From a virus: DNA of 24,212 nt. The notes under the pieces were generated by a model. That model worked only from the letters and a program-made list of their open reading frames with translations. It ran no database searches and was not told the DNA's origin. This document shows, piece by piece, positions 13,428 to 19,297 of this stretch. Position 1 is the stretch's first letter. Each line of letters starts with the position of its first letter. A program made the position numbers and the translations under genes. The stretch is taken from positions 1 through 24,212 of the IMG/VR virus record IMGVR_UViG_3300034107_000256; one strand, written 5' to 3'.

Positions 13428-14021
13428 ATGAAAAAAATATTATTCCTTATCCTTTTCCCGTTGTATTCCTTTGCTCAGGATACAATAATTATCAAAAAGG
13501 TATTTATTGACCCTGACACGGTCTGGCAGGTAAAGCAAATTACCGACGCGGATAATTCAAGTTTAACCGTGTTTGCTGATTCAAATCTCATTGTCCCTTT
13601 TCTTACTAATGACCTGGTTGACGATTCCCGTAAAATGGCTGATGCCTTAAATTTACTTGAAAGGCAAAACAAGTTTATTGCAAGTGCGAACAAGTTAGAC
13701 AAGTCATTGAGCAACGGAAAAATACAAGGCTCATTTGATTATTTGCAAGAACAATTTAAAAGGTTTTGGACAGGCAATTATCAAGCCATTGCCAACGGAA
13801 CAAAGGTTGTGGCAGGGGCTGAAATATTTGTAAATCAAGCGGGAAGCCTGAGGATTAAAATAGGTGAATCTTTGAATAGACCTTTGGTTATTATTTCTGA
13901 CACGTATGGGTATATTTTAAATTATCCCAATCAAGGCGATAGAATGGTTATTTATTTAACGAAGGCAAATGTTTTCAAAGACTTTGATAATAAATTAATC
14001 CTGAGAAAAACAAAGCAATGA
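13428..14021 (+). CDS. Exported protein of unknown function
   Basis: 197 residues with an obvious Sec signal peptide at 1-17 (MKKILFLILFPLYSFAQ). The mature part begins DTIIIKKVFIDPDTVWQVKQ, contains a helical middle (DDSRKMADALNLLERQNKFI, SFDYLQEQFKRFWTG) and a beta-rich end (AGAEIFVNQAGSLRIKIG). No lipobox cysteine is present, so it is periplasmic or secreted rather than a lipoprotein. It begins 6 bases after the fibre stop and overlaps the holin gene by 4 (ATGA), so it is co-expressed with fibre and lysis genes. It could assist envelope disruption or host-surface modification, or partner the fibre. No family recognised. Confidence 0.75.
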   Translation: MKKILFLILFPLYSFAQDTIIIKKVFIDPDTVWQVKQITDADNSSLTVFADSNLIVPFLTNDLVDDSRKMADALNLLERQNKFIASANKLDKSLSNGKIQGSFDYLQEQFKRFWTGNYQAIANGTKVVAGAEIFVNQAGSLRIKIGESLNRPLVIISDTYGYILNYPNQGDRMVIYLTKANVFKDFDNKLILRKTKQ

Positions 14022-14422
14022 AAGCAACCTTAATAAACTTTTTGCATCTTGGATGGGAAAAAATAACATATGCCATTTGTTGCGGCTGGATATTTTCATT
14101 TTTCATACCAATAAAAGGATTTTTGATATTTACGGTATTCGTGGTTTTTGCCGATATGGCTACGGGAATCCTCGCAGCAAAGAAAGAGCAACAAAAGATA
14201 AATAGCAAAGGCCTTTATCGTACAATGGAAAAAATAGTCGTTTATTTCTGTGGCATCCTGATATTCGAGGGTGCAAGAAATACTTTTTCCCTTCCGTTCA
14301 ACATAACGTACATGGCAGCGTTTTTAATTGCAACGGTGGAGCTTTATTCTATTTCGGAAAATATTAAACGCATAACAGGCGTAAACCTTGGCGTTTTAAT
14401 CACACGTTTTTTTAATCGTTAA
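14018..14422 (+). CDS. Phage holin (holin_4-like)
   Basis: 134 residues with several hydrophobic segments: about 14-36 (WEKITYAICCGWIFSFFIPI), 34-52 (KGFLIFTVFVVFADMATGIL), 70-84 (IVVYFCGILIFEGA) and 92-108 (FNITYMAAFLIATVELYSIS). The charged linker AAKKEQQKINSKGLYRTMEK and the 'ELYSISENIKRITGVNLGVL' end match the phage_holin_4 (toxin-secretion/lysis holin) family. It permeabilises the inner membrane and times lysis. It overlaps the exported protein gene and is followed by a small gene and the amidase, forming a lysis cassette. Confidence 0.85.
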   Translation: MKATLINFLHLGWEKITYAICCGWIFSFFIPIKGFLIFTVFVVFADMATGILAAKKEQQKINSKGLYRTMEKIVVYFCGILIFEGARNTFSLPFNITYMAAFLIATVELYSISENIKRITGVNLGVLITRFFNR

Positions 14423-14801: not shown

Positions 14802-15464
14802 ATGAAAGCATCTAAATTTTGTGTTTTCCTTGACGCGGGACATGGAGGAATTGACTCAAAGAAAAAGTTACCTTACAATTATACGACTTACCCGTCAAAG
14901 TGCGCTCAGCATAATAACGCAAAATTCCACGGTTACGGGTGGTTCTTTGAAGGCGTGTTCAACCGCGACGTTGCGGCAAAGATTGAGCAGTATTTAATTG
15001 ACTGGGGCTTTTCCGTGGTACGCGTTTACGATCCTGTCTTGGATATTTCATTGACTAAGCGCGTGGCGAAGGCAAATATTAACGCTCAAAATTACGAAGA
15101 TTCGTTGTACCTCAGCATTCACGGTAATGCGGCAACGTCACCCAACGCAAGGGGTTTTGAGGTGTTTACGAGCAAAGGTAAAACAAGGTCGGACATTTAC
15201 GCGGAGTTTCTTTTCAAAGAGGTTCAGGAGGCATTCCCTAAATGGGTGTATCGCATGGATACAACGGACGGCGACAAGGATAAAGAAGAAAGCTTCTTTG
15301 TTATTACTCAAACCAATATGCCAGCGGTGCTCAGTGAAAACGGCTTCTTTACAAATTACCACGATGCTTTAATGATGTTTGACCCTGTGTTCCAAAACAC
15401 GTTGGCTTTGTCTCATGCAAGGGCGGTCGTGGATTACGCGAAAACGCAAGGGGTAATCTTTTAA
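14802..15464 (+). CDS. N-acetylmuramoyl-L-alanine amidase endolysin (Amidase_3)
   Basis: 220 residues with the complete family-3 amidase zinc site: H14 in LDAGHGG, E50 in GWFFEGVFNRD, H107 in LSIHGNA, and catalytic Glu179 in VLSENGFFTN. It cuts the bond between muramic acid and L-Ala in peptidoglycan. There is no signal peptide or cell-wall-binding domain, so it is a single-domain, holin-dependent endolysin. It is the last gene of the + strand late cluster, after the holin. Start codon ATG is preceded by A-rich AAAATATTAAAAT. Confidence 0.93.
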   Translation: MKASKFCVFLDAGHGGIDSKKKLPYNYTTYPSKCAQHNNAKFHGYGWFFEGVFNRDVAAKIEQYLIDWGFSVVRVYDPVLDISLTKRVAKANINAQNYEDSLYLSIHGNAATSPNARGFEVFTSKGKTRSDIYAEFLFKEVQEAFPKWVYRMDTTDGDKDKEESFFVITQTNMPAVLSENGFFTNYHDALMMFDPVFQNTLALSHARAVVDYAKTQGVIF

Positions 15465-15901: not shown

Positions 15902-16115
15902 TTGTCTTTGTTTTGTTTAGTTCCTCAATTAAAGCACCTGCAGATTTTACAGCATCTATTACTTTGCTTATAATTAATGCACTGTCATTTGCTAACAACC
16001 CTTGCAATGCCATTGCAGCAAAGTACTCGCGCTTTGTAAGACCCTCAGATGTGTAATTATCCATATAAAGAATCCTATTTATCGATTCATTTGCTTTTGT
16101 TTCTTTATTTTCCAT
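15894..16115 (-). CDS. Small conserved phage protein (GLTKREYFAAMALQGLLA type)
   Basis: 73 residues with the motif GLTKREYFAAMALQGLLAND, which I recall from many small phage proteins (variants like 'TLRDYFAAKAMQGLLA') of unknown function. It is helical and ends in LIEELNKTKTND. Start is 11 bases inside the resolvase gene (ATGGAAAATAA), and it overlaps the next short gene by 8. Part of a tightly coupled block of five ORFs between 17132 and 15529. Confidence 0.8.
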   Translation of the reverse strand: MENKETKANESINRILYMDNYTSEGLTKREYFAAMALQGLLANDSALIISKVIDAVKSAGALIEELNKTKTND

Positions 16116-16587
16116 GTTTCATATAATTTTTTGCCATAAGCGCAAGGAAGAAAGCGTCTATTTCGTCTTGACTTATTTTGGCTGGTTTAAAATCTGGTTC
16201 AAATTTCAGTCGCTCACTTGCGACAACTCGCATAAAGACGTCTTTATTAAACTTTTTACCCTTTGCTTCAGGGCTAATATTATAGGCTTCAATGTCATGT
16301 TCCTTTATCCATTCATAAGCAATCCTGGAAGCGGCTTGATTCATGCCAACGTTGCGGGACATTCGAGAAAGGATCGCGCGGTTGATTGAATTATTAAAGG
16401 TCACATTCTGGAGGCTTGAATCTTCAACCAAAACAACAGGACTTTCGTATGTCACCCAGGTTATAACGTCACCGATAAAATCGACAAACCTTTTATACCT
16501 TTTGAAAATCATGGTGCGGTCTGCGATAATGCAAACCGCCATTCCCTTTATTCTTAACGCTGGGTCAACGCCTATCAGTGTCCTCAA
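16105..16587 (-). CDS. RuvC-like Holliday junction resolvase
   Basis: 160 residues with an RNase H-like layout of acidic residues: D8 in IGVDPALRIKG, E55/D56 in VVLVEDSSLQNV, and D141/E142/D144 in SQDEIDAFFLALMA. NQAASRIAYEWIKEHDIEAY resembles the helix after strand 4 in RuvC. Such enzymes resolve branched DNA in phage replication and packaging. The start is TTG (16587-16585), overlapping the upstream stop as TTGA; no ATG lies near the N-terminus, and the conserved D8 requires this start. Another RNase H-fold nuclease is possible. Confidence 0.75.
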   Translation of the reverse strand: MRTLIGVDPALRIKGMAVCIIADRTMIFKRYKRFVDFIGDVITWVTYESPVVLVEDSSLQNVTFNNSINRAILSRMSRNVGMNQAASRIAYEWIKEHDIEAYNISPEAKGKKFNKDVFMRVVASERLKFEPDFKPAKISQDEIDAFFLALMAKNYMKHGK

Positions 16588-17155: not shown

Positions 17156-17185
17156 AAAAAAAAGGGGCAGCTGGGGGCGCTGCCC
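17156..17185 (-). terminator. Intrinsic terminator after the 17199-17819 gene
   Basis: GGGCAGC (17165-17171) pairs with GCTGCCC (17179-17185); loop of 7. On the - strand, T8 (17163-17156) follows. It ends a short transcription unit 14 bases after its stop codon. Confidence 0.88.
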
Positions 17186-17198
17186 TGTGAAACAATTA

Positions 17199-17819
17199 TT
17201 AAGCGTAAACAATTTCTTCGGTGAAAAATTTGCCGTCAACATATTTTAAGCGGCGTGTTGGTAGCTCGTTTTTGTCTGCTTTTTTTGTGGCAGATGGGCG
17301 GTAATTAGTTTTTACAAGCGCATAAGCAATTACCCAAAGTTGCTTGTCAGTAAATGTTGACTGGCTTGTTAAGATGTTTAGAGCCAATGAACCCTCAGGA
17401 AGGTAAGATTTAATTTCGCTTATCTTCGTTGCAATCGCGTCTAATCTTGCCTCGCTAACATAAGAGCCAACTGAGCTTACATGATTTTTTGTTGGGTTAA
17501 TAAAATTGATAGAATTGAACACTTCTTTTGCGCTTACTGGTGCAGTTGTTACTTCTTCCTGTACGTCAACTATCGGAAGATATGATGCCTCCTCGATTCT
17601 TTTACCTTTGTAGCCTTTGTATATTGTGTGCTTTAACATCCAGTAAATGCCGTCTTTTATGATAACCATCGAAGCGTCTTGTAATTCTATGCCATTTTCT
17701 GCAAAGAATTTGTTGGCGGTTTTTTTGAAAATAACTGGCTGGTCATTCTTTACAGCCATGTAAGATTTTAAAGATGTTCTAAGTTCTGATTTTGGAGCTA
17801 AAATGTTAATTGAGATCAT
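17199..17819 (-). CDS. Hypothetical protein, stand-alone unit
   Basis: 206 residues. The gene stands alone between a promoter module (17860-17911) and a terminator (17156-17185), so it can be expressed separately and perhaps strongly. The leader TTCACACAACAAAAACAAAC precedes the ATG closely. The protein has an N-terminal half with beta strands (MVIIKDGIYWMLKHTIYKGY), a Thr/Val linker (VDVQEEVTTAPVSAKEVF), and a helical C-terminal half (TDKQLWVIAYALVKTNY). No family recognised. Confidence 0.75.
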   Translation of the reverse strand: MISINILAPKSELRTSLKSYMAVKNDQPVIFKKTANKFFAENGIELQDASMVIIKDGIYWMLKHTIYKGYKGKRIEEASYLPIVDVQEEVTTAPVSAKEVFNSINFINPTKNHVSSVGSYVSEARLDAIATKISEIKSYLPEGSLALNILTSQSTFTDKQLWVIAYALVKTNYRPSATKKADKNELPTRRLKYVDGKFFTEEIVYA

Positions 17820-17925: not shown

Positions 17926-18771
17926 TTAAAATTCATCTCTTTTCCCTTTCAACGGGTAATGATTCTTTTTCAACTCCCAGAACTCAGCCATTAATGAGGC
18001 GCGAAACTTGTAATCGGTGTCCGTGTGATACCCGCTTTTGTAAACACATTTACAAATGCTTTCATACAACTTTATCCCTTTCAACTTGTAATTTGCCTTT
18101 TTACATTCCGCGTATCTGCCAGAGTTCAAAACGCCTGCCCAAAGCTTCATGCCTTCTTCCGTGGTGCTTGCACTCATGAACTTGGCGCGAATGTACTTGT
18201 CGCGTCCGCGAATGACCTCCCGTGTTTTGTACGTCACCGACTTTTGATTTTTCAAAGCCTTTACGCCTCCAGCGTTCGCGTGTTTACGCCAAAGTTCGGT
18301 TTCAACGCCTGAAGTGGTTGCCTCAATGATGAAAAAGGAATAGATCATGGACACTGGGAAGTCGGTCAAGTGATGAACATTCATAAGCATGGCTTCGTAG
18401 GAATACGCCAGCCATATACGACGCATTTTAAATAAGTCGATTTTATCAAGGTTTCGGAAACCTTTGCCTTCAAGGTTTTTTCTTAATTCGTGAATATTCA
18501 TTTTCCTTATTTCCCAGCCGTATGACCTTGAGCCATACGCCTTTTCATTGACCTCGCTTTTTTCTTCCTTTGCTGGGAATGTAAGCGTTGTAATTTTGTG
18601 AACATACACCGTGTCGCGTTCAACGACTGGCACGAATGAGGTGTAATGGTATTGGGTGTTGATTGGGGAATAAATTAACCCAACAACGAAGGCAACGCCA
18701 ACGCCAGCGGCTACCTGATATGGCATCCGCTTATTTTGTGGGACGTAGGTTTCAATGATTGGCTCTTTCAT
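17926..18771 (-). CDS. Membrane-anchored glucosaminidase-like protein
   Basis: 281 residues. A single N-terminal membrane segment lies at about 20-37 (VAAGVGVAFVVGLIYSPI), so the rest should be periplasmic. Residues 137-265 resemble the FlgJ/GH73 glucosaminidase fold: FPVSMIYSFFIIEATTSGVE with putative catalytic Glu150, 'RKHANAGGVKAL' in place of the NNxxGxK motif, SGRYAECKKAN, and 'SGYHTDTDYKFRASLMAEFW' like the GYATDPxY end of that family. It could trim peptidoglycan at the inner membrane, for example in superinfection control. It overlaps the upstream gene by four bases (ATGA). Catalysis is not certain because several motif positions differ. Confidence 0.6.
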   Translation of the reverse strand: MKEPIIETYVPQNKRMPYQVAAGVGVAFVVGLIYSPINTQYHYTSFVPVVERDTVYVHKITTLTFPAKEEKSEVNEKAYGSRSYGWEIRKMNIHELRKNLEGKGFRNLDKIDLFKMRRIWLAYSYEAMLMNVHHLTDFPVSMIYSFFIIEATTSGVETELWRKHANAGGVKALKNQKSVTYKTREVIRGRDKYIRAKFMSASTTEEGMKLWAGVLNSGRYAECKKANYKLKGIKLYESICKCVYKSGYHTDTDYKFRASLMAEFWELKKNHYPLKGKRDEF

Positions 18772-18965
18772 AAAAATGTCTTTTTAATTATTTTTTCTCC
18801 AACAATAAATTTATCGTCTGCAACTTCAGGATTAACGTCGTAAGTAAATTCAACCCATCTGTAACCAACAATTTTTAATTTATTGTTGCCTTTTCCGTCT
18901 AATCGCATACCAGCAATAATTGGAAACTTTTGTACTTCTTTTTGAAAATTGTTATATAATTTCAT
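18768..18965 (-). CDS. Hypothetical protein
   Basis: 65 residues, 2 bases after the upstream stop and overlapping the glucosaminidase-like gene by four (ATGA). Basic N-terminus (KLYNNFQKEVQKF) and beta-type middle (NNKLKIVGYRWVEFTYDV). No family recognised; tight coupling suggests co-expression with the membrane-anchored protein. Confidence 0.72.
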   Translation of the reverse strand: MKLYNNFQKEVQKFPIIAGMRLDGKGNNKLKIVGYRWVEFTYDVNPEVADDKFIVGEKIIKKTFL

Positions 18966-19231: not shown

Positions 19232-19260
19232 TTGTTTTGTTTTTAATGGTAAATAATAAA

Positions 19261-19281
19261 GAGGGAGTTTACACCCCCCTC
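19261..19281 (-). terminator. Hairpin after the 19298-19633 gene
   Basis: GAGGG (19261-19265) pairs with CCCTC (19277-19281); on the - strand a G-T wobble and one further pair extend the stem. The - strand continues TTTATTATTT, an imperfect T-tract. It lies between two - strand genes and is probably a partial terminator. Confidence 0.6.
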
Positions 19282-19297
19282 TTGTTTTTTTTTATTT

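Follow-up and report, generated by a model that had tools for sequence, protein, structure and literature searches.

Introduction

When a phage encodes a cell-wall hydrolase, the usual assumption is that the enzyme serves lysis or entry. What would such an enzyme do if a phage anchored it in a membrane and encoded it among genes of DNA metabolism? The question is raised by a 24.2-kb virus record (the window, meaning the whole stretch of DNA analysed). A preliminary description of its sequence had picked out a protein with an N-terminal anchor and labelled it FlgJ/GH73-like. Here we examine the gene and its neighbours, the catalytic domain, the anchor and the GH73 genes of other phages, and weigh the roles that the protein may have.

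The gene and its neighbourhood

The gene (17926..18771, minus strand) was confirmed exactly as an open reading frame with an ATG start, encoding a 281-amino-acid protein (P0001). It is not a chance reading frame, because relatives are encoded in 208 stretches of viral contigs, and identity is 78–100% in the best 80 of these 208. The relatives compared below are 101 distinct full-length proteins pooled from several scans, with four partial matches dropped. The protein consists of a short tail, a single hydrophobic helix, a flexible linker and then a GH73/FlgJ-type domain.

On the minus strand, a 65-amino-acid gene (18768..18965) overlaps the start of the GH73-type gene by four bases at its 3' end. 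Downstream lie a 206-amino-acid gene (17199..17819) in a variable slot, then the conserved partner of the GH73-type gene, which encodes a 182-amino-acid four-helix membrane protein (P0002; 16584..17132), and next a RuvC-like resolvase (16105..16587), a weak assignment (phrog_1770, E 0.011). The same arm carries a dCTP deaminase-like gene, a dATP/dGTP diphosphohydrolase domain and a PD-(D/E)XK nuclease. The late arm, on the plus strand, encodes a holin (14018..14422; PF05105, E 2e-9) and an N-acetylmuramoyl-L-alanine amidase without a signal sequence (14802..15464; PF01520, E 5.6e-26). Just upstream of the holin gene is a 197-amino-acid protein with a signal-like N-terminus (13428–14021, plus strand), unlike the secreted proteins found in its place in some relatives; it is possibly a spanin or a surface protein.

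This arrangement is shared. Among 80 loci retrieved via the four-helix protein, 76 hold the GH73-type gene, four are too short, and none with room for it lacks it. The GH73-type gene precedes the four-helix gene on the same strand in all 76; the gap is 10 bp in 10 of them and a longer slot elsewhere. Of the loci, 72 hold the GH73-type gene, the four-helix gene and the amidase, and in all 72 the amidase and the GH73-type gene are on opposite strands. The preliminary description had put the gene in a non-late arm, with replication genes and away from the amidase. That placement proved correct: the gene lies among genes of DNA metabolism, and the late arm with the holin does not contain it. In one relative read across the arm (G001), ParB-like and replication-like genes, identified by eye, lead to nuclease and nucleotide genes and then to the GH73-type gene, followed by the four-helix gene, the RuvC-like gene and a small gene, where the arm runs up against the end of the amidase gene. 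G003, G007, G010 and G011 have the same order from the GH73-type gene through the four-helix, RuvC-like and small genes to the amidase. The slot between the GH73-type and four-helix genes holds different genes in the genomes read, and it is a place of gene exchange.

The four-helix protein had no PHROG, NCBIfam or PADLOC family match, and a Pfam scan of its longer open reading frame returned just DUF6524 (E 0.022). A terminator-like hairpin, found as a consensus match, lies between the 206-amino-acid gene and the four-helix gene (17165..17185, minus strand), so co-transcription of the GH73-type and four-helix genes is uncertain in the window phage. A second such consensus match lies upstream of the GH73 unit (19259..19283, minus strand). 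Hairpins of this kind numbered 18 in the scanned stretch of the window, against 10.4 expected. The Bacteroidetes-type promoter motif TTTG-N-TANNTTTG occurred at three sites in the window (1.6 expected), not clearly more often than by chance, and showed no excess in three relatives.

The catalytic domain

Pfam Glucosaminidase (PF01832) matched neither the window protein nor any of the 16 relatives scanned, and for that reason we call the protein GH73-type. Broader profiles do connect it to known enzymes. PHROG endolysin families match the window protein weakly (2e-4); among the 16 relatives, phrog_12727 (endolysin) matches all and phrog_1309 matches 13. Three bona fide viral GH73 proteins match these endolysin families very strongly, with E-values of 1e-12 to 4e-33. 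One family member also matched phrog_3513 (5.8e-8). The NCBIfam model PRK12709 (FlgJ) gives a weak match to all 16 relatives (best E 1e-4). In genomes of the genus Flavobacterium, phrog_18032 and PF01832 pick the same chromosomal genes (e.g. G045).

Closer comparisons were less productive. A profile built from 30 GH73 proteins of Flavobacterium chromosomes scored the best family member at 6.4 bits, against 10.2 for the best of 3000 shuffles, and hhalign against these chromosomal proteins gave a probability of 2.6%. We used both for motif order alone; since they failed as similarity tests, the relation to GH73 rests on the broader profiles, the motif order and the fold. A phmmer search of PDB sequences found nothing relevant.

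The motifs were read from an alignment of 32 rows, nine of them from the family and 23 from other viral GH73 proteins. Nine positions are invariant in it and follow the GH73 order: P139, E150, N166, G169, K171, F198, Y220, Y248 and Y254. Eleven of the residues at and around these motifs are kept in all 101 relatives (E150, N166, G168, G169, K171, E185, F198, R219, Y220, Y248 and Y254), while V170 is replaced by glycine in four of the 101. The preliminary description had proposed Glu150 as the residue to check. Residue 150 is indeed a glutamate (codon 18322..18324, minus strand), it occupies the catalytic position, and it varies in neither set. The GH73-type domain itself (residues 113–265; 17977..18435, minus strand), delimited from the alignment and the structure model, is the best conserved part of the protein: mean identity of the relatives to the window protein is 0.88 there and lower for the helix (0.81), the linker (0.76) and the tail (0.49).

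A first AlphaFold2 model, built from close relatives only, reached a pLDDT of 42 and gave meaningless Foldseek matches; it was discarded. The second, built from the 32-row alignment, has block-mean pLDDT mostly of 75–88 over residues 90–260. Foldseek found matches to it with a best E of 2.3e-6, and the titles of all ten entries matched at an E-value of 0.001 or less name peptidoglycan hydrolases or autolysins. VIA-align superposed it on AtlA (7qfu) with Z 15.7 and rmsd 2.4 over 152 aligned residues, and on the Sphingomonas A1 hydrolase with Z 13.0–14.9. The latter alignment begins with residue 118 of the model and residue 153 of the chain. From these aligned ranges, E150 would match residue 185, the residue changed in 3k3t. 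The lysozyme-like fold that the preliminary description led one to expect is thus predicted, though the model already had the GH73 idea built into it, since its alignment included real GH73 sequences.

Taking profiles, motifs and fold together, the FlgJ/GH73 label is borne out, though PF01832 is silent, and we hold the GH73-type fold and site with high confidence. The protein is probably a beta-N-acetylglucosaminidase, a peptidoglycan hydrolase that would cut GlcNAc-MurNAc bonds. The divergent sequence, the lack of a Pfam match and a two-residue insertion after the Glu, relative to other GH73 proteins, could instead point to an inactive protein of GH73 fold that solely binds peptidoglycan or a partner. 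We consider this very unlikely, as all 101 relatives keep E150, E185 and the signature residues of GH73.

The membrane anchor and linker

A transmembrane helix is predicted at about residues 16–36 (18664..18726, minus strand) from hydropathy, the AlphaFold2 model and conservation, in agreement with the N-terminal anchor of the preliminary description. On the Kyte–Doolittle scale the best 19-residue stretch starts at residue 20, with a mean of 1.77. K14-R15 directly precede the hydrophobic segment, and residues 16–33 are helical in the second model. Six anchor positions are invariant in the 101 relatives (A27, F28, G31, Y34, S35 and P36). A27 and G31, small residues four apart, suggest that this helix may pack against another. 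Beyond the helix, linker residues 40–81 have pLDDT below 50 in the second model.

Such a helix also raises the possibility of a second endolysin of signal-arrest-release (SAR) type, which would be inactive while tethered to the membrane, be released at lysis and then act with the amidase. Small residues (Gly, Ala, Ser or Thr) take up 7 of 19 helix positions here, compared with 10 of 19 in phage P1 Lyz, which belongs to the muramidase families, and 0–7 in other viral GH73 proteins, which puts the window protein between P1 Lyz and most of those other segments. PMC12642591 describes SAR domains as weakly hydrophobic, Gly/Ala-rich and Lys-flanked. SAR endolysins (phage P1 Lyz, N4 gp61) resemble the window protein in having a wall enzyme on an N-terminal helix of no great hydrophobicity. 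The anchor of the window protein is weakly hydrophobic, fairly rich in small residues and preceded by K14-R15, and an inactive enzyme would be harmless if synthesised early. But an invariant helix pattern in 101 of 101 relatives would be needless for a disposable anchor, and the long linker of the model means that tethering need not mask the active site. SAR endolysins also belong to the lysis cassette, whereas this gene is not beside the holin. Overall we rate the SAR reading as rather unlikely, though it and superinfection exclusion are the main rivals of the reading preferred below.

GH73 genes of other phages

A query with the GH73 domain returned 44 viral loci. Most of 38 listed viral GH73 proteins have a hydrophobic segment or signal at the N-terminus. 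We inspected the surroundings of 24 GH73 loci and picked 40 neighbouring proteins by eye for scanning. A DNA- or nucleotide-metabolism gene lies within about 3 kb of the GH73 gene in 10 of the 24, which is to be read as a pattern and not a rate, because we selected the neighbours by eye and the loci do not represent independent lineages.

The genes found near GH73 are varied: ERF (L224, L240), PD-(D/E)XK nuclease (L225, L231; below the cut-off in both), AAA and 5'-3' exonuclease (L226), a weak clamp loader (L229), C5 methylase and ThyX (L242), resolvase (L245) and MazG (L253). One anchored GH73 lies between rve (transposase-like) and AAA genes in a locus that is Mu-like by order (L243, 128–4347). 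A phage-borne SmpB (PF01668, E 6.6e-46) is near GH73 in L234 (1151–1579), and in L218 GH73 is beside the portal gene. Within 2.2 kb, L221 (2731–4918) combines an anchored GH73 with an Amidase_3 and a further GH73 that is small and secreted (PF01832, E 1.3e-19). This arrangement looks like lysis and counts against the reading preferred below. The rest of the 24 loci had no telling match or were outside the scanned set. An aminoacyl-tRNA-synthetase-like gene lies just upstream of the GH73/amidase group in L221.

The premise of the preliminary description that hydrolases usually sit in the lysis cassette stands only in part: several phages inspected here have GH73 genes near DNA-metabolism genes, and T7-like phages encode an amidase in gene 3.5. 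The gp3.5 protein is a soluble amidase of a fold other than GH73. According to PMC3080317, this wall enzyme likewise lies outside the late gene block and is apparently not essential for lysis. The window protein might by analogy be a dual protein, a wall enzyme kept with the replication genes that also regulates transcription or DNA work. The difference in solubility and fold speaks against the analogy, as does a catalytic domain predicted to lie outside the cytosol behind a membrane helix, and we regard such a dual role as highly improbable.

A possible role during infection

The reading that we prefer, tentatively and at a little under an even chance, is that the tethered GH73-type enzyme makes local openings in the peptidoglycan while the infection is under way, and that it supplements the late holin/amidase pair. 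Its N-terminus would stay in the cytosol, the single helix would cross the inner membrane and the catalytic domain would face the periplasm. A linker of about 45 residues would let the tethered domain reach the wall; because this long linker separates helix and domain, we infer that the enzyme may be active while tethered. Judging from its placement in the DNA-metabolism arm, it would be made earlier than the late holin and amidase, or separately from them. Such early synthesis need not kill the cell, because the tether would limit the enzyme's reach. Limited local cutting of glycan strands from inside, probably together with the conserved four-helix membrane protein, would condition the envelope during infection, and at a later step the enzyme may cooperate with the amidase and help lysis. 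We take the anchored GH73 to be an extra enzyme because the late arm already has a holin and a signal-less amidase, the usual pair for lysis.

The preliminary description had suggested superinfection exclusion, envelope remodelling or a trap against other phages. In such a role the tethered enzyme, possibly aided by the four-helix protein, would change the wall or periplasm and so stop a second phage from injecting. The early-arm position of the gene, its pairing with a membrane protein gene, its redundancy with the late lysis pair and the recurrence of GH73 near DNA-metabolism genes in other phages are all consistent with this. There is a precedent for an early periplasmic exclusion protein in T4 Spackle, but Spackle as described in PMC7677548 is a lysozyme inhibitor and no hydrolase. 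PADLOC, a library not built for phage-borne exclusion genes, returned no family at E 0.01 for the GH73-type protein and five neighbours, and we found no case in the open-access literature. We judge exclusion unlikely as the role of this protein.

A broader reading is also conceivable. Several unrelated kinds of Bacteroidota phage may use a dedicated class of tethered GH73 proteins, made with the replication genes, for a non-lysis purpose, altering the host wall during infection (e.g. excluding competitors or keeping the cell able to grow); here the protein would be complexed with its four-helix partner. We think this possible but doubtful.

If the preferred reading holds, the wall would be modified in mid-infection by a tethered hydrolase that every relative with enough flank encodes alongside genes of DNA metabolism. 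The pairing of the GH73-type and four-helix membrane genes is a small module, and the enzyme's placement and tether suggest a wall that is altered before the cell bursts.

Comparison with known systems

The enzyme family is known; the build of this member and the place of its gene are unusual. The window protein resembles GH73/FlgJ hydrolases (AtlA, 7qfu; Auto, 3fi7; Sphingomonas A1, 3vwo/2zyc/3k3t; Salmonella FlgJ, 5dn5) in the fold of the catalytic domain and shares with them the catalytic-position Glu and the N-x-x-G-x-K, RY and GY-x-T motifs. It differs in being only 14–22% identical to them in structural alignments, in lacking a PF01832 match, and in having the N-terminal membrane anchor, the linker and the insertion of two residues after the Glu. 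Bacteroidota-type phage GH73 proteins (L221, L224–L229, L231, L233, L238–L245, L252) also combine an N-terminal hydrophobic segment with a GH73 domain and are often encoded near DNA-metabolism genes. Their identity to the window protein is 14–20%, some lie near lysis or structural genes, and by eye none has a four-helix partner beside it. The glucosaminidase gp08 of the Cellulophaga ssDNA phage phi18:4 is of the same superfamily and from a flavophage, but PMC11946311 places it within the structural module and reports it in the virion.

In the open-access literature we found no description of an early, anchored GH73 like this one. A survey of viral lytic proteins, as set out in PMC12596118, discarded endolysin candidates with transmembrane regions, so wall enzymes bearing such regions may have been overlooked.

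Distribution

No clear relative of the GH73-type protein, and none of the four-helix partner, was found in 50,697 phage records. For the GH73-type protein, tblastn against cultivated phages gave weak matches to Synechococcus phages only (best E 0.5). The portal of the phage has remote matches only. Of 41 candidate stretches in bacterial genome contigs, a single one codes for a relative, and it lies on a Flavobacterium MAG contig of 4.8 kb; within the genus, the protein is in one of 299 genomes, the same MAG. With this single contig and one genome of 299, we set aside a chromosomal or prophage home. A Flavobacterium-type host is only a guess, as the bacterial matches come from that one MAG contig.

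The carrier is a common, widespread, uncultured lineage of freshwater phages. Of six records retrieved whole, four carry 127-bp repeats at their ends and appear to be complete, with lengths of 39.3–40.7 kb. The terminal repeats are exact in G001, G007, G010 and G011 (ends L082–L097) and are probably the assembly overlap of circular or permuted genomes.
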